Source of the DNA: Muribaculaceae bacterium Isolate-013 (NCI)
GTDB taxonomy: Bacteria > Bacteroidota > Bacteroidia > Bacteroidales > Muribaculaceae
DNA length: 64,000 bases
Reading direction: 5' to 3'
NCBI GenBank assembly: GCA_004102785.1
Contig: SCEJ01000003.1
Span: 62,001-126,000, forward strand
The notes below the pieces were generated by a model. It was not told the DNA's origin, did not search any database, and saw only the letters and a list, made by a program, of their open reading frames with translations. Shown in pieces: positions 3,332 to 62,853 of this stretch. The translations under genes and the position numbers were made by a program. Position 1 is the first letter of the stretch, and each line of letters opens with the position of its first letter.

Positions 3332-3382
3332 AACGATAGCCCCGTGAAGTTCACTTATGCTTCACGGGGCTATCGTTTTTTT
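3332..3382. terminator. Bidirectional terminator between convergent genes
   Basis: An 18-bp perfect inverted repeat (3332-3349 with 3360-3377) around a 10-nt loop, with a T tract on the right and A residues on the left. It separates the GH13 gene from the TPR gene arriving on the other strand and probably serves both. Confidence 0.8.
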
Positions 3383-15886: not shown

Positions 15887-16285
15887 TTGCGTAATTAAAC
15901 GAATAAGATTAATTTTGCGTTATAATAATAAAGCAAGCGAGCTTTACAGGCTTCATCGAAGCCCCGATGATATTGCCACACCAAAGTTGATTGGGAAACT
16001 CATCAATTTTATATGAAATGCCGAGACATCCTCTACGTCTGATGGCGGGCCCCGATTCTCCAATTTGGAGAATGTGTTTCACACCAGGCGGATTACAAAG
16101 GGCGCAGAGACCTCAAATCCTGTCATTCGGAGTTTCATCGCATCCTTTGATGTGGCACATTACAAATGCCGGCAGTGCTTACACCAATTTGGTAGCGCTT
16201 GCCGGCATTTCCTTGTAAAATATTGCACACCAACCAACTATAATGTGCAGAAATAAGAAAATATGTTCTACAACATATTTTCAAT
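15887..16285 (+). ncRNA. Candidate structured RNA or long ndk leader
   Basis: This stretch lacks a credible gene but has a full promoter: TTG (15887-15889), 20-nt spacer, TAATTTTG (15910-15917), predicting a start near 15923. Downstream are several dyads: TTCATCG/CGATGA near 15953-15968, a 9-bp dyad at 16055-16073, an 11-bp stem with a 25-nt loop at 16164-16210, and an 11-bp stem with a 4-nt loop at 16257-16282. It could be a free-standing small RNA or the 5' part of a very long ndk leader. No match to RNase P, SRP or tmRNA motifs was recognised. Confidence 0.35.
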
Positions 16286-29959: not shown

Positions 29960-30150
29960 AGGCTCCTTAATGCCTTTGCTTCCGGCAGGTATTCTGACTT
30001 GCCCCATTTTCATTGCGCGCCTTCCCAAAGCATATGCTTCAGTGACATATTGCGCCTGATTGCCGGATGCCGGCAAGGGGGTTACAGCAGCGGGTACTGT
30101 CGACGGATTCACACCGTGTTCCCTGCCCTCCCGAAGCGGGAGGTTTCCAA
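29960..30150 (-). promoter_or_regulatory. Cobalamin riboswitch
   Basis: Read on the minus strand the leader contains the canonical core GGGAACACGGTGTGAATCC with downstream CAGTACCCGCTGCTGTAA, then the B12-box-like GTCAGAATACCTGCC near 29984-30000. A short CCTCCCG/CGGGAGG hairpin opens it. It lies between a minus-strand -7 element (30159-30166) and the first gene of the uptake operon, with a terminator in between. It should lower expression of all seven genes when cobalamin is plentiful. Confidence 0.92.
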
Positions 30151-30158
30151 AAGCTTTG

Positions 30159-30166
30159 CAAATTTA
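30159..30166 (-). promoter_or_regulatory. -7 element of B12 operon promoter
   Basis: TAAATTTG on the minus strand; the predicted start falls at the 5' edge of the riboswitch. It is divergent from, and about 48 bp away from, the -7 element of the AlkD-like gene. Confidence 0.55.
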
Positions 30167-43683: not shown

Positions 43684-43771
43684 GGAGCGATGCTCGAGTG
43701 GCTGAAGAGGCACGCCTGGAAAGCGTGTATACGCCAAAAGCGTATCGGGGGTTCGAATCCCCCTCACTCCG
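43684..43771 (+). tRNA. tRNA-Ser(GGA)
   Basis: Class II tRNA with GGA anticodon in CTGGAAA, a long variable arm (TATACGCCAAAAGCGTAT) and the T arm GGGGGTTCGAATCCCCC. The acceptor stem is GGAGCGA with TCACTCC, which leaves one C-A mismatch at the fifth pair. CCA is not encoded. It is the apparent integration site of the adjoining prophage, whose integrase gene starts about 210 bp downstream. Confidence 0.95.
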
Positions 43772-43773
43772 CT

Positions 43774-43823
43774 AAGTAACACGTTATAAATCAGCACGAT
43801 TTAAGCGTGTTACTTTTGTTTTT
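43774..43823 (+). terminator. Terminator after tRNA-Ser
   Basis: AAGTAACACG (43774-43783) pairs with CGTGTTACTT (43806-43815), followed by TTGTTTTT. Confidence 0.65.
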
Positions 43824-53910: not shown

Positions 53911-54456
53911 TTAGCGTTTTCGGAGGAAAAGCCATATAAGGACGGCTGCGGCCAGGAGGGCTGCTACGGATATTATCGTGCCGTCGGGCGGATTGTATAG
54001 GCGTGTGGTGGCGGTGTGCTCGGTTGATGCCTCAACTGCCGCTTGCCTGTATCTTACCGTATCGAGGCTGTTGTAGGCTTCAACGCTATCCCGATGCTCA
54101 CGCCGCCGGTCTATCACACGCCCTTTTATGGCTTTTAGCCGGATAATCTCGGGTGCCTCGGCGTATTGACCGGGTCGCTCGATTTCGATTTTCAGGGTGT
54201 CGAAGCTAAAATCGAAATGTCTTATGGCGGAGTCTATCACCGCTGTTGTGCGGTGATGCTCACTGTGCGCGAGCGAGTCGGTGGCGAGCGATTTATCAGT
54301 GACGATGTTTTTGTTGGTCTTACAGCCGCAAAGTATGAGGAATGGGAACAGGTAAATGGGAATTGACCGCAGCCAATCAATCCTCAATCTCCAATTACCG
54401 TTTGCCTTTATAGTGCGCATAGGTCGGTGTCGTTTTTTACGATGAATGAGGGGCAA
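53911..54456 (-). CDS. Candidate unimolecular spanin (lysis)
   Basis: 181-aa protein with two membrane signals: a lipoprotein-type segment (SIPIYLFPFLILCGC, lipobox LCGC with C45) and a C-terminal helix (about 158-178, GTIISVAALLAAAVLIWLFLRKR). Between them lies a charged, partly helical periplasmic stretch. Outer-membrane lipid at one end and inner-membrane helix at the other is the u-spanin layout, which fuses the two membranes at the last step of lysis. It follows holin and endolysin and overlaps the endolysin end. Met13 (54420) is an alternative start. No sequence family was recognised. Confidence 0.65.
   Translation of the reverse strand: MPLIHRKKRHRPMRTIKANGNWRLRIDWLRSIPIYLFPFLILCGCKTNKNIVTDKSLATDSLAHSEHHRTTAVIDSAIRHFDFSFDTLKIEIERPGQYAEAPEIIRLKAIKGRVIDRRREHRDSVEAYNSLDTVRYRQAAVEASTEHTATTRLYNPPDGTIISVAALLAAAVLIWLFLRKR
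54373..54401 (-). repeat. G-rich dispersed repeat, degenerate copy in spanin gene
   Basis: On the minus strand GGTAATTGGAGATTGAGGATT resembles the repeat seen elsewhere; it encodes NGNWRLRIDW near the spanin N-terminus. The match is weak and the orientation opposite to the other copies. Confidence 0.3.
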
Positions 54457-55112
54457 GCCTTGTTTGCGAACTCACATTCTGTGCATTGACGGCTGCACTC
54501 GGCATAGTTGAAGCGAGCTTCACTCTGCGCTCGTTTGCACGTCAATTCGTTATGTCCGTGGAGGGTGGCCGAGGGATAGCGGCTTTTCAGCTCTTTGCAG
54601 AGCCTGATTATGGCGGCACGTTGCTCCGGGGTGCGTGTGTCCTTGCCTTGGTTGGCCCAGTTCTTGACGGTGCGCGGAGGGCAACCGCCGCAGTAGCACA
54701 CTCCGATTGAGTGGGAGTTTTGGCCTGTGGTGTGCGCCCCGATTTTGGCCTCGTCGCGCCCTTTGTGGATTTTTCCGTCGCGTGTGATGTACCAGTGATA
54801 GCCGATGTCGGTAAATCCACGGGCGAGGTGCATCTGCCGGATTTGGTCGACGGAATAATCCTCACCCTCGGGGGTGGCCGAGCAATGGAGGATTATCTTG
54901 TCGATGCGGCGAGGGTTCGGTGATGAGCCGATGCCGAGCGCAGCCCAGGTCTTGGGGCCAACGATGCCGTCGACGGCGAGGTTATGGGTGCGTTGGAAGT
55001 CGCGGACGGCTTCGTCGGTAATTGGGCCGAAGATGCCGTCGGCAATAAGGTTGAGAGCGTGTTGGAGGGTGGCGACGTCGCCCCCTCTGCTGCCTTTACG
55101 GATTGTCTGCAT
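54408..55112 (-). CDS. Endolysin: N-acetylmuramoyl-L-alanine amidase with peptidoglycan-binding domain
   Basis: 234-aa endolysin. Residues 1-60 form a peptidoglycan-binding-1 domain (VATLQHALNLIADGIFGPITDEAVRDFQ). Residues 68-225 form an Amidase_2/PGRP zinc amidase: ligands H76 (IILHCSAT), H187 (HGHNE) and C220 (KACPSF), and Tyr in GYHWYIT. A 25-residue Cys-rich insert (190-214, TCKRAQ to TECE) separates HNE from FANKACPSF. The start at 55112 removes a poor 23-residue extension and leaves a 17-bp overlap with the holin-like gene. Confidence 0.88.
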   Translation of the reverse strand: MQTIRKGSRGGDVATLQHALNLIADGIFGPITDEAVRDFQRTHNLAVDGIVGPKTWAALGIGSSPNPRRIDKIILHCSATPEGEDYSVDQIRQMHLARGFTDIGYHWYITRDGKIHKGRDEAKIGAHTTGQNSHSIGVCYCGGCPPRTVKNWANQGKDTRTPEQRAAIIRLCKELKSRYPSATLHGHNELTCKRAQSEARFNYAECSRQCTECEFANKACPSFIVKNDTDLCAL

Positions 55113-55368
55113 TTTGGGTTGATGTGTTATGAGTTGATGATTGTGATGAGTTTTCGTGGTGGCAGCTACTGCCGTATTCATAATGGTATTTTAATCCGAA
55201 CACCGCCCCTGCGAAAGTGAGGATTTCACCGAAAGCGATAAGGACTGAATTGTGGATTTCGCCGGGCGGTGGCACGACAAATCCGGCGATGAGCAGACCG
55301 CAACCTACGACAATCAGAAAGACTGCCGCAAGGAGCTGAATGGTCGGGCGATGTTTGCGAATTTCCAT
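55096..55368 (-). CDS. Holin-like membrane protein
   Basis: 90-aa protein with two membrane helices (about 11-35, LLAAVFLIVVGCGLLIAGFVVPP; and 44-65, SVLIAFGEILTFAGAVFGL), a short loop and a polar His/Ser/Asn tail. Size, topology and place directly before the endolysin fit a class II holin. A start 16 codons upstream is possible, but MEIRKHRPT gives a normal basic N-terminus. Confidence 0.72.
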   Translation of the reverse strand: MEIRKHRPTIQLLAAVFLIVVGCGLLIAGFVVPPPGEIHNSVLIAFGEILTFAGAVFGLKYHYEYGSSCHHENSSQSSTHNTSTQNADNP

Positions 55369-55377
55369 TGTAAAATG

Positions 55378-55408
55378 TTGTGTATGTGGAGAATTATTGT
55401 TACCTTTG
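55378..55408 (+). promoter_or_regulatory. Host-type promoter of the three-hairpin RNA
   Basis: TTG (55378-55380), 20-nt spacer, TACCTTTG (55401-55408), pointing right, against the late operon. Predicted start near 55414. Confidence 0.65.
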
Positions 55409-55413
55409 CATAT

Positions 55414-55642
55414 CAAGATACGTTAAACCAAACTAATTAACCCGGACACCTCTACCTGTAAGTGAAGCCAAGCTAAAAGAACTGTGATACCTATGTCCGT
55501 ATGCGTGATAGCACTCCGTTTGGGCTATCATTGCGGTGCATTTGCGATAGCACCCCCGCAGGTTTCGGCCTCGGGCTATCGGGAAGCGGTATAAAACAGA
55601 TAGCATCACCCTTGCGGCTCTGCCGTGAGGGCTATCTTTTTT
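55414..55642 (+). ncRNA. Candidate small RNA with three GATAGC/GCTATC hairpins
   Basis: About 230 nt between a promoter and a terminator with no reading frame of note. An outer CGGACA/TGTCCG pairing (55443 and 55494) comes first. Then three hairpins share the closing stem GATAGC...GCTATC: 55506-55530, 55545-55581 and 55598-55637. Their flanking base pair differs each time (T-A, C-G, A-T) yet still pairs, which is compensatory change. The third ends in a six-T run and is the terminator. It is antisense to late mRNA between the 335-aa gene and the holin. No known RNA family was recognised. Confidence 0.6.
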
Positions 55643-55653
55643 CGCTCCGCTCA

Positions 55654-55717: not shown

Positions 55718-56725
55718 CTACTTCCCAAAAGTCCACTTTTGGGAAGTGGGGTTGTAAATTATCGAGAACTCGGCGAGCGAGCTTGCGAGGTTGGCGGTGG
55801 TGATAAGGGAGCGTCCGGGGAGCATCTTCTTTGCAAAGCCGACGGCGAAACGCAGTCGGATCATGCGGTGCTTCTTCGGGTTCTTGGGGTCAAGCAGGGA
55901 GATTGTCGAGCGGCCCCAGCCGATAGAGGGGGTGCCGTCGCGGCGTATATGGACGGTGACGAGGGCATCGGGCGAGGTCGAGTAGCCTATGGCGACGGTT
56001 GTTTGCTCGGTTTTGGGGTTGATTGAGAAAGAGAGCGTAGAGCCGGATATTTTGACGGAGTGGACGGAGCCGTAGAGGTTCCACCCCTTGCGTTTGTCGC
56101 AGTATTTCTTGGTGGCGCCTCCGGCCTCGATTACGAGCTTGTCGCCCCACTGGTTGCGCTTTCGTGTGTGCCGGAACAGGTAAGGCACATACCCGTCGGC
56201 GATGAGCTGTTGCGCACCGTAGATTTTCAAGGTGCTGCCAACGACGGCCACGGAGATTTGGGCGGTGTTATACAGCCCTTTGGTGCCGTCGGTCATACCG
56301 AGTTTAGCCTGAATTTTTTCGAGCAGGGGCAGGATTTCGGCGATGCGGTTACGGGCGTTGTTGAGGTCTACGACCTGCTGCGCACGCATCGCCCCGGCAC
56401 GCTCGGTGGTGGCCTGTTTGATGAAAAGGTTGTTTGAGGCGGTTGCGATAGAGCCGTTACCGAGGTCTACGGCCTTGATGTTTGCGAGGATATTGTTGCG
56501 GTCGGCAGCCCCTTGCTCAATGGAGCACACCGCTTGCCCTGCGGCCTTGAAGCCGTTGAGCAGGGTTTGAATAGCGGTGACGGTGTCGGACGTACCGGCA
56601 GTAGCGAGCAGGTCGGCGATGCGCTGCAAGATAGCACCGAGCGACTCCGGGGAAACGGAGTCCTTGGATTGCAGCTTTCGGAAGTCCGAGATAATCTGCG
56701 TGAGTGATTTAACGTCGATAGCCAT
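55718..56725 (-). CDS. Phage structural protein, function unresolved
   Basis: 335-aa protein first in its block. The N-terminal 150 residues are helical (SLTQIISDFRKLQSKDSVSPESLGAILQRIADLL). The C-terminal half is beta-rich with basic residues (YVPYLFRHTRKRNQWGDKLVIEAGG, KMLPGRSLITTANLASSLAEFSIIYN). A tail fibre or appendage role is possible from layout and place before the lysis genes, but nothing decides it. An 11-bp inverted repeat (55721-55746) covers the last codons. A phage-type promoter lies 53-87 bp upstream. Confidence 0.55.
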   Translation of the reverse strand: MAIDVKSLTQIISDFRKLQSKDSVSPESLGAILQRIADLLATAGTSDTVTAIQTLLNGFKAAGQAVCSIEQGAADRNNILANIKAVDLGNGSIATASNNLFIKQATTERAGAMRAQQVVDLNNARNRIAEILPLLEKIQAKLGMTDGTKGLYNTAQISVAVVGSTLKIYGAQQLIADGYVPYLFRHTRKRNQWGDKLVIEAGGATKKYCDKRKGWNLYGSVHSVKISGSTLSFSINPKTEQTTVAIGYSTSPDALVTVHIRRDGTPSIGWGRSTISLLDPKNPKKHRMIRLRFAVGFAKKMLPGRSLITTANLASSLAEFSIIYNPTSQKWTFGK

Positions 56726-57419: not shown

Positions 57420-57866
57420 TTATGTAACGAAGCGACGGGAAATGTTGCGAGTTAGGGCGTTGCTGACGGTGTCGGCAAGGTCGCGTCCGAGGTTGTCGGC
57501 GTAGAAGTCGCGTATGTTCATCACGGAGGCATAGTATTTGCGGCTGAACCACCGCTTGCGTCGTCGGGCGTTGTCACGTCCGAGATCGCCGGGGTTGCCG
57601 CGTGGCGTGTTTGAGCCGGTGGCGTAGTCGACGAACAGGCCGTACAGGTTAAATGATTGTTCGAGGGTGATAGATGTATATTTGCCGTCGGCGTTCATAC
57701 GCACGGCAAGCGTCGAGCGGTAAAGTGCGCCGGTGTCTATGACCCCGAGCAGGGCAATTTGCTCGCGCCAAATCCGCACCATAGTCGCATTGAACGCTTT
57801 TACATAGCGTTCACGCGCCTTTTGTGCGGATTGGGAATTTGAAATTGGGTATTGGGAATTGGGCAT
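57420..57866 (-). CDS. HK97 gp10-like / tail-completion protein
   Basis: 148-aa protein. The core (TMVRIWREQIALLGVIDTGALYRSTLAVRM, then GLFVDYATGSNTPRGNPGDLG and a basic RRRKRWFSRKYY) resembles the gp10-like family that joins head and tail. The first about 13 residues (PNSQYPISNSQSA) are encoded by the G-rich dispersed repeat, so the native start may have been replaced by the repeat. It lies opposite the four-helix-bundle gene, whose promoter shares the same repeat. Confidence 0.6.
   Translation of the reverse strand: MPNSQYPISNSQSAQKARERYVKAFNATMVRIWREQIALLGVIDTGALYRSTLAVRMNADGKYTSITLEQSFNLYGLFVDYATGSNTPRGNPGDLGRDNARRRKRWFSRKYYASVMNIRDFYADNLGRDLADTVSNALTRNISRRFVT
57829..57864 (+). repeat. 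G-rich dispersed repeat, copy C
   Basis: TTGGGAATTTGAAATTGGG continuing into TATTGGGAATTGGG. It provides the start of the gp10-like protein on one strand and the -33 TTG of the four-helix-bundle promoter on the other. Confidence 0.65.
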
Positions 57867-57881
57867 AAATGTTTATCTTTG
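57852..57881 (+). promoter_or_regulatory. Host-type promoter of four-helix-bundle gene
   Basis: TTG (57852-57854), 19-nt spacer, TATCTTTG (57874-57881), 16 bp before the ATG. The -33 box lies inside a G-rich repeat. Confidence 0.7.
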
Positions 57882-57897
57882 CGCAAAGATTGAGAAT

Positions 57898-58257
57898 ATG
57901 GCAGTTATAACTTTTGAAGACCTCGATGCTTGGCGAGAGAGTATGAAGCTCGTCAAGGACGTTTACGCACTCACAAAGAAATTTCCACAGGAGGAACGAT
58001 TTGGCTTGACAAGTCAGGTGCAAAGGGCGGTTGTTTCTATTCCGTCGAACATCGCAGAGGGGCATGGAAGATATTCTAAATCTGAATTTGCAAATTTTGT
58101 GTCTATCTCACACGGCTCTCTAAATGAAGTGAGGACACAAATACGTATTGCTCAAATGCTTGGCTACATTTCCGATAATGAGGCAAATGACATCATAGCC
58201 AAATGCACTACTATTGGAAAAATCCTCGGAGGATTGATGAAATCACTTAAACAATAG
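57898..58257 (+). CDS. Four-helix-bundle protein (S23/TIGR02436 family)
   Basis: 119-aa protein with the family pattern FEDLDAWRESMKLVKDVYALTKKFPQEERFGLTSQVQRAVVSIPSNIAEGHGR, SEFANFVSISHGSLNEVRTQIRIA. Members occur as open frames in 23S rRNA intervening sequences and as scattered accessory genes; the diversity-element helper Avd shares the fold. Here it is a single + strand gene with its own promoter in the middle of late phage genes, so it behaves as cargo. No reverse transcriptase is nearby. Confidence 0.88.
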   Translation: MAVITFEDLDAWRESMKLVKDVYALTKKFPQEERFGLTSQVQRAVVSIPSNIAEGHGRYSKSEFANFVSISHGSLNEVRTQIRIAQMLGYISDNEANDIIAKCTTIGKILGGLMKSLKQ

Positions 58258-59606: not shown

Positions 59607-59933
59607 TTACATTTTTACTTTTGGATATTCACGAGGAAATAGTTTGTGGAGTACTTCTTGTTTCGATGAGTTGATGATTTCTTTGTCGGATTTCAGAATT
59701 TCTCCATTCGGGAGCGAATATGTACGTTCAACCACAGTTCGGTTGGGGGCATCTTTAACTGCCGTAACATTTGTTACCACAATAACTTCAACACCTCCGT
59801 CGGTATTACCCTTGCAAGGATTATTCTTTTGTGTCAGGTCAATTTCCGACCCATAATAATGAGCTGTGACAGTTTCCGCAGACAATGGGAGCACGGCACA
59901 AAGAGCGATGAATAGAGTGTAAAATATTTTCAT
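59607..59933 (-). CDS. Small exported protein, prophage cargo
   Basis: 108-aa protein with a cleavable signal peptide (MKIFYTLFIALCAVLPLSAE) and a short beta-rich mature part (VTAHYYGSEIDLTQKNNPC, VEVIVVTNVTAVKDAPNRTVVERTYSLPNGE). AT-rich, with its own host-type promoter about 70 bp upstream and a late promoter just downstream for the next block. Likely expressed in the lysogen. Function unknown. Confidence 0.75.
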   Translation of the reverse strand: MKIFYTLFIALCAVLPLSAETVTAHYYGSEIDLTQKNNPCKGNTDGGVEVIVVTNVTAVKDAPNRTVVERTYSLPNGEILKSDKEIINSSKQEVLHKLFPREYPKVKM

Positions 59934-60003: not shown

Positions 60004-60034
60004 CAAATATAGGGATAAATTCTACAATAGACAA
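60004..60034 (-). promoter_or_regulatory. Host-type promoter of small exported protein
   Basis: Minus strand TTG (60034-60032), 20-nt spacer, TATATTTG (60011-60004). Leader of about 65 nt. Confidence 0.55.
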
Positions 60035-62377: not shown

Positions 62378-62436
62378 AACATTGAGGTTGGTTGCTCAAA
62401 GTTATGGACGATATGATGAGCGCGAAAAGACGCTTA
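62322..62436 (-). repeat. 115-bp direct repeat, copy 1 (portal leader and first codons)
   Basis: Begins on the minus strand at the TAA of the membrane-protein gene, carries the late promoter and leader, and ends about 18 codons into portal. It matches copy 2, exactly 615 bp away, at 111 of 115 positions. Confidence 0.9.
62397..62431 (-). promoter_or_regulatory. Phage-type late promoter, portal
   Basis: Minus strand GTCTTTT (62431-62425), 20-nt spacer, TAACTTTG (62404-62397), 19 bp before the portal ATG. The best match in the six-site family. Confidence 0.75.
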
Positions 62437-62853
62437 TTTCTTTGAAGTCTTGAAAAATTTTATGCGTTTTAATATATGTCCAATGCCTACCGCCAACATT
62501 AAAAATCCAATCTTGCCGTGCACTCCACCAAGAATAGAATGGTGATTAGAAATGAGCCAATGGATAAAGGTTGCGATGCCAAGAATAATGGTTGCGAGAA
62601 ACAAATACCATAAAATACGCGTAACGGGCTTTTTTAATTTATTAAATCTGGCAAACCAGTTACACCATTTGAAATGGAGATAGATGTGTAAAATAACTAA
62701 GAGAGAAAATAACAAGCCAATAAACACATGAAGCCATACCGGCAATAAACCTCTGCTTCCTGTGGCTTCAAGTTGAATACTGGAAGTTAATATGAGTAAA
62801 CAAAATATTAGTAATGCCCAATTGCAAATTTTCAGTTTTTCAAGATGTTTCAT
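62434..62853 (-). CDS. Four-helix His-containing membrane protein, prophage cargo
   Basis: 139-aa inner-membrane protein with four helices (ALLIFCLLILTSSIQL, LHVFIGLLFSLLVILHIYLHF, ILWYLFLATIILGIATFIHW, GKIGFLMLAVGIGHIL). Histidines sit in pairs on helices 2 and 4 (LHVFIG, HIYLHF, HGKIGF, GIGHIL), as in small haem-binding cytochrome b-like or DUF4405-like proteins. AT-rich. It is bracketed by a duplicated portal leader and has a consensus host promoter whose start coincides with the ATG, so it should be made leaderless in the lysogen. Confidence 0.75.
   Translation of the reverse strand: MKHLEKLKICNWALLIFCLLILTSSIQLEATGSRGLLPVWLHVFIGLLFSLLVILHIYLHFKWCNWFARFNKLKKPVTRILWYLFLATIILGIATFIHWLISNHHSILGGVHGKIGFLMLAVGIGHILKRIKFFKTSKK

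Follow-up and report, generated by a model that had tools for sequence, protein, structure and literature searches.

A predicted small RNA built as three copies of one hairpin lies beside a tail-protein domain in prophages of Muribaculaceae and Prevotella

The ColE1 RNA I is about 100 nt long and consists of three tandem hairpins, in RNAs of the CsrB/RsmZ type one hairpin recurs several times, each copy being a site for protein, and type III toxin-antitoxin systems pair ToxI, a short tandem repeat RNA, with the protein gene next to it. Very little is known about RNA biology in Bacteroidales phages. In Salmonella prophage BTP1, the RNA STnc6030 is encoded opposite the late operon near a tail gene (PMC7067206). 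Among Bacteroides small RNAs, FopS has a sigma-ABfr promoter, GibS, FopS and DonS end in an intrinsic terminator, and DonS is an antisense RNA (PMC11697453, PMC7366714). Here, we analysed a window of 64,000 nt (the whole stretch of DNA under study) that holds a prophage of a mouse-gut-type Bacteroidales bacterium with a Muribaculaceae-type genome (G000, 3.3 Mb), related within its family to Duncaniella muris and further Muribaculaceae. Within the prophage lies the predicted gene of an undescribed small RNA that is built as three copies of one hairpin. A literature search of open-licence papers found no published description of this RNA, and no Rfam 15 family scores above its gathering threshold for it.

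The RNA shares with STnc6030 its place in a prophage, opposite the late operon and near a tail gene. However, STnc6030 is 786 nt long and antisense to coding sequence, whereas the RNA described here is about 228 nt, or 95-110 nt in compact relatives, and lies in a gap only; three like hairpins kept across many phages are a further difference. The compact forms resemble RNA I in their length of about 100 nt and three tandem hairpins, yet RNA I is antisense to a replication primer and its hairpins differ from each other, and the Rfam RNAI covariance model does not match our RNA. Repeated copies of one hairpin are also a feature of CsrB/RsmZ, but the core here is of the GATAGC type, and CsrA (PF02599) is absent from the prophage's own host genome by a search that was positive in three control genomes. 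As with ToxI, a repeat RNA stands beside a protein gene; ToxI's toxin gene, in contrast, lies downstream on the same strand, while the neighbour here is convergent and tail-fibre-like, with no Pfam match to a ToxN-type toxin. The promoter type and intrinsic terminator are those of the Bacteroides RNAs, which differ in being chromosomal and in acting through seeds or as susC antisense (PMC11697453, PMC7366714).

One end of the prophage is marked by a tRNA at 43684 and an integrase at 43807, with the late genes on the minus strand. The RNA occupies the gap between the stop of the tail-fibre-like gene (55718) and the start of a holin-like gene (55368), downstream of which an amidase endolysin is encoded (Table 1). 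Its promoter carries the TTG near -33 and the TAnnTTTG at -7 of the Bacteroidetes consensus, in which the upstream element is TTTG or TTG (PMC7366714), and TTG-N19/20-TAnnTTTG is present in 25/26 aligned members. The original prediction had described a plus-strand unit of about 230 nt with a host-type promoter and no frame, which our analysis confirms as a whole, here as 55414-55641. The promoter is indeed of the host's Bacteroidetes type (TTG-N20-TAnnTTTG, not sigma-70), and transcription in the lysogen is predicted from that promoter type. As expected of a sigma-ABfr small RNA gene, the unit ends in an intrinsic terminator and has no conserved reading frame: the sole long plus-strand frame, 47 codons and open at its 3′ end, is not kept in relatives. 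A further statement, that the RNA runs against the late genes, does not hold for their coding sequence, since the RNA is confined to the gap and, unlike STnc6030, overlaps neither coding sequence nor a translation start of a late gene.

Table 1. Positions in the window of the predicted RNA gene, its parts and the adjoining late genes
Feature	Position	Strand	Remark
Sigma-ABfr type promoter	55378..55408	+	TTG 55378-55380, 20-nt spacer, TACCTTTG 55401-55408
Predicted noncoding RNA, ~228 nt	55414..55641	+	start inferred from promoter, end inferred from terminator
5′ module unit 1 (GTTAAACCAAACTAATTAACCCGGACACCTCT...)	55422..55461	+	model R1 matches 55421-55504
5′ module unit 2 (GTGAAGCCAAGCTAA...GATACCTATGTCCGTATGC)	55462..55504	+	within R1 match 55421-55504
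Hairpin 1	55506-55530	+	GATAGC/GCTATC stem
Hairpin 2	55545-55581	+	GATAGC/GCTATC stem
Hairpin 3 and T-run (55637-55642), intrinsic terminator	55598..55642 (stem to 55637)	+	GATAGC/GCTATC stem
Tail-fibre-like protein, 335 aa	55718..56725	-	convergent with the RNA; candidate partner gene
C-terminal domain of tail-fibre-like protein (~residues 151-335)	55718..56275	-	pI 10.3, fold unassigned; constant neighbour of the RNA
Small membrane protein, probable holin, 90 aa	55096..55368	-	adjoins amidase
Endolysin, amidase_2 and peptidoglycan-binding domain	54408..55181	-	

All three GATAGC/GCTATC hairpins were found as originally claimed, the last being a terminator with its T-run. The combination GATAGC-N8-35-GCTATC occurs three times at the locus and once elsewhere in the 64 kb, while shuffled sequences give 0.11. 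Single-sequence folding is unremarkable (z = -1.28 for the plus and -0.82 for the minus strand, with 22/200 shuffles folding equally well on the plus strand), and the case for a predicted RNA is built on comparative data rather than folding energy. Conservation of the paired stems in homologous regions, on which the original prediction hinged, was found: promoter, stems and position are kept in relatives. That prediction had also pointed to the outer pair of each stem, which reads T-A, C-G and A-T in the window; these pairs are present, but because the outer pair is standard in only 45/60 hairpins, its covariation is weak when taken alone, and the covariation signal in the aligned sequences sits in the inner stem. 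Across 60 hairpins from 20 loci, pairing is found in 381 of the 420 stem cells, whereas reshuffled 3′ letters give 348 ± 4 (0/5000); the arms were aligned by hand and many loci are related, so that the counts are not independent events. RNAalifold on MAFFT alignments performed poorly because loop lengths vary. Compensatory changes occur at pair 2 (A-T to T-A and to G-C), pair 3 shows a recurrent pyrimidine-pyrimidine mismatch, which some genomes (L052, L059) have in each of their three hairpins, and L011 has an A-G mismatch at pair 4 of every hairpin. Of the 60 hairpins, 46 have GATAGC as the 5′ arm and 33 have GCTATC as the 3′ arm, and a linker with a GTAT-like sequence precedes each of the three long-form hairpins. 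Over 432 inner stem positions at 24 loci, 23 G-U pairs form when the plus strand is taken as the RNA, compared with 0 for the minus strand; related loci are not independent in this count, and L138, L113 and L112 show the plus-strand bias separately. Conservation of promoter, stem and position, together with these strand-specific G-U pairs, supports a predicted three-hairpin RNA gene on the plus strand. As a separate observation, a host intrinsic terminator at 3334-3375 (+) likewise has a GATAGC/GCTATC stem. GATAGC was considered as a common host or terminator word and rejected, with 63 occurrences observed and 51 expected in about 84 kb (rank 260/3426); as the word is not over-represented, the stem of that terminator is probably coincidence.

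Homologues were found well beyond the window. Among 198 family genomes, a BLAST search with the RNA stretch recovered 10 good homologues of 71-99% identity, and pattern searches and IMG/VR added further ones, including two Prevotella MAGs. Those in Muribaculaceae and Prevotella prophages retain promoter, hairpins and position, and the loci sit between the same two genes, even where the flanking products are only 42-66% identical in more distant phages. A cultured strain, Duncaniella muris DSM 103720, is among the carriers, with the RNA on contig NZ_PUEC01000047.1, which makes the RNA testable. At the same position, distant relatives of the neighbour gene have other units of promoter, hairpins and terminator. 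The farthest are compact RNAs of 95-110 nt, in which three hairpins share one core that differs from phage to phage. In L138 and L113 the RNA, at 95-98 nt, is three hairpins and nothing else, and three tandem hairpins within about 100 nt are likewise seen in L115, L119, L120, L248, L251 and L254. GUGUGC-UUCG-GCUCAC-like hairpins are present three times in L115-L119, from Muribaculaceae phages of another genus, and in the IMG/VR phages L248-L254, with a compensatory change (GUGUAC/GUUCAC) in hairpin 2 of L251. Core likeness is 0.81 within one RNA and 0.62 between lineages (0/5000 label shuffles). The hairpins of L008/L050 form a degenerate set; L139/L140 are ambiguous.

One way to read this arrangement is as a cis-encoded antisense RNA, which in lysogens would pair with the late mRNA between the tail gene and the holin, expose it to RNase and block late or superinfecting expression as STnc6030 of prophage BTP1 does, with the three hairpins acting through kissing-loop contacts, like those of ColE1 RNA I. 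Every member lies on the opposite strand inside the late operon, the compact forms fit three hairpins into about 100 nt, and STnc6030 is a precedent (PMC7067206), but the lack of overlap with any late coding sequence or start site and the UUCG loops of some hairpins, which are poor for kissing, argue the other way. More broadly, complementarity in cis does not call for a core in three copies, a GATAGC arm that hardly varies or G-U pairs confined to one strand. The pairing with late mRNA that was originally proposed is possible in cis but does not predict the observed constraints. We regard the antisense explanation, which accounts for the position, as rather unlikely, though it is the chief rival of the reading favoured below. 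The other original proposal, a repeat-hairpin decoy, is possible and fits the shared hairpin core.

Members of the window type have in common a 5′ module of two to four 40-nt units (GTGAARCC...CCGGACACCTCT); the long-form unit follows the pattern GTGAARCCANRCTAA...CCGGACACCTCT, each about 40 nt, with two units being usual and four found in L006 and L065. The units are highly conserved and by prediction mostly unpaired. A sequence model of this part, R1, finds 16 true genomes among 397 of the family, and no member outside Muribaculaceae and Prevotella in samples of the order and phylum; its weakest matches (E 0.004-0.01) lie in coding genes and so are not members. Conserved, apparently single-stranded units would suit an RNA that base-pairs in trans with host mRNAs, its seeds being the C-rich 5′ units (ACCUCU) or the hairpin loops, and Bacteroides host small RNAs do regulate in trans through single-stranded 5′ parts (PMC11697453). 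Against this, the 12-nt conserved 5′ core has no second complementary copy beyond its own locus in eight phage regions, and since the compact forms lack the 5′ module, pairing by its units could occur in long forms only. We hold trans base-pairing to be improbable. The module, absent from compact RNAs, needs an explanation separate from that of the hairpins. Mimicry of the 16S rRNA 3′ end by the 5′ unit (an ACACCTC match) was considered and is not significant, as 0.06-0.37 of shuffles do as well. Two IMG/VR relatives (L022/L029/L032) carry some 95 additional bases, rich in inverted repeats, from the -7 box to the 5′ module, which would lengthen their RNA. The 3′ domain is larger in L135 and in L045, which retains the 5′ module; this larger domain (~100-400 in L045, ~6000-6250 in L135) has repeated GAAAA...GAAGTA hairpins that resemble loop-E type internal loops, and it has no Rfam match. 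Genome G339 holds two different RNA copies on two contigs (L057/L069 and L087); their stems are of the form GTTAGC/GCTTAC, and GTGAAAGC..GTGAGTAG occurs in their long upper stems.

The original prediction placed the RNA with the lysis genes, an association that is incidental, and it missed the link to the tail gene. Porphyromonas phages whose holin is homologous leave no gap to house the RNA, and it is missing from most of the other holin relatives in IMG/VR, which turned attention to the tail protein. Moreover, the holin neighbour varies, being of a different family in L116 (weak Phage_holin_4_1 match) and separated from the RNA by another membrane-protein gene in L112, while the tail-protein C-domain always adjoins. 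The RNA lies tail-to-tail with the tail-fibre-like gene, and a convergent TTG-N19/20-TAnnTTTG is found 134-452 nt from the gene's stop in 37/40 distinct C-domain loci, where chance would give about 0.03 per locus (per 350 nt). The three loci that lack the full pattern still show a hairpin RNA; the misses are an N in the -33 box (L087), a contig edge (L245) and no well-spaced -33 (L119). A convergent promoter just upstream of the lysis genes in nearly all members would also be expected of a transcriptional barrier, in which opposing promoter and terminator keep leaky late transcription from the lysis genes and the RNA itself is inert. This would leave three like hairpins, compensatory stems and the near-constant GATAGC arm unexplained, and we consider it very improbable.

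The coupling is to the C-domain rather than to the whole protein. Wherever a family genome encodes a strong full-length relative of the 55718 protein (15 genomes), the RNA is present as well, and in L120 the N-terminus is unrelated, yet C-domain and RNA are both kept. Six relatives by the N-terminus only (L121-L126) lack the RNA, a modest control because several are short fragments. RNA-core distance tracks C-domain distance (r = 0.84; partial 0.81 with the N-terminus held fixed) and does not track N-terminus distance (partial r = -0.24), a correlation to which linkage by position would equally give rise. As the RNA stands beside the same tail-protein domain in every related phage found, they probably have a joint function or at least move as one, and RNA and C-domain of the convergent gene probably form one cassette. 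The domain is basic (27 K/R against 9 D/E, pI 10.3), and its AlphaFold model is confident (pLDDT 90.6, pTM 0.83). Fold and family searches of PDB, BFVD, Pfam and PHROGs gave no match at useful scores, and in structure searches the fold resembles nothing known to bind RNA. From its sequence, the remainder of the protein resembles a tail fibre, with an N-terminal anchor and repeated AT..AG motifs.

We tentatively favour, at somewhat less than an even chance for the reading as a whole, a multivalent RNA acting in trans. Here, a noncoding RNA read from the host-type promoter in the lysogen would carry one hairpin three times and so offer the same binding site thrice to one partner, probably a protein; three hairpin copies that change together suggest such a repeated partner. 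The partner would differ between phages and co-evolve with the RNA, which would act as a multivalent ligand or decoy, and the likeliest candidate is the basic C-domain of the tail-fibre-like protein, or its production. Conservation across the loci extends to the promoter, the hairpins and the strand, and equally to the repetition in threes and the coupling with the domain; that the RNA binds protein, and which one, we infer from these patterns. Simple physical linkage, with neighbours recombining as a unit, could account for the coupling, and a basic tail tip may bind acidic polysaccharide rather than RNA. A stricter version, in which the C-domain binds its own phage's triple-hairpin RNA as an obligate pair, the RNA controlling, chaperoning or neutralising the virion tail-tip protein, seems to us unlikely. 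If the multivalent reading is right, an undescribed class of RNA tied to one tail-protein domain runs through a whole lineage of gut phages, its hairpin sequence changing in all three copies together and together with the protein. Such a class would be a ready system in Bacteroidales phages for studying how RNA and protein co-evolve, or a function in antisense control or exclusion.

Elsewhere in the late region, a gene at 57852-58257 (+) encodes a 118-aa four-helix protein of the 23S rRNA-intervening-sequence/bAvd-like kind (PF05635, E 4e-41). It has its own sigma-ABfr-like promoter, is read from the plus strand within the minus-strand late operon, and is likely an accessory gene of the prophage. 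Two further sigma-ABfr-like promoters, at 60034 and 62887 (-), point the same way as late transcription and precede genes 59607-59933 and 62434-62853. Within the host DNA of the window there are a Bacteroidales-1 (6S-like) RNA at 15974-16163 (+) and a cobalamin riboswitch at 29967-30166 (-).
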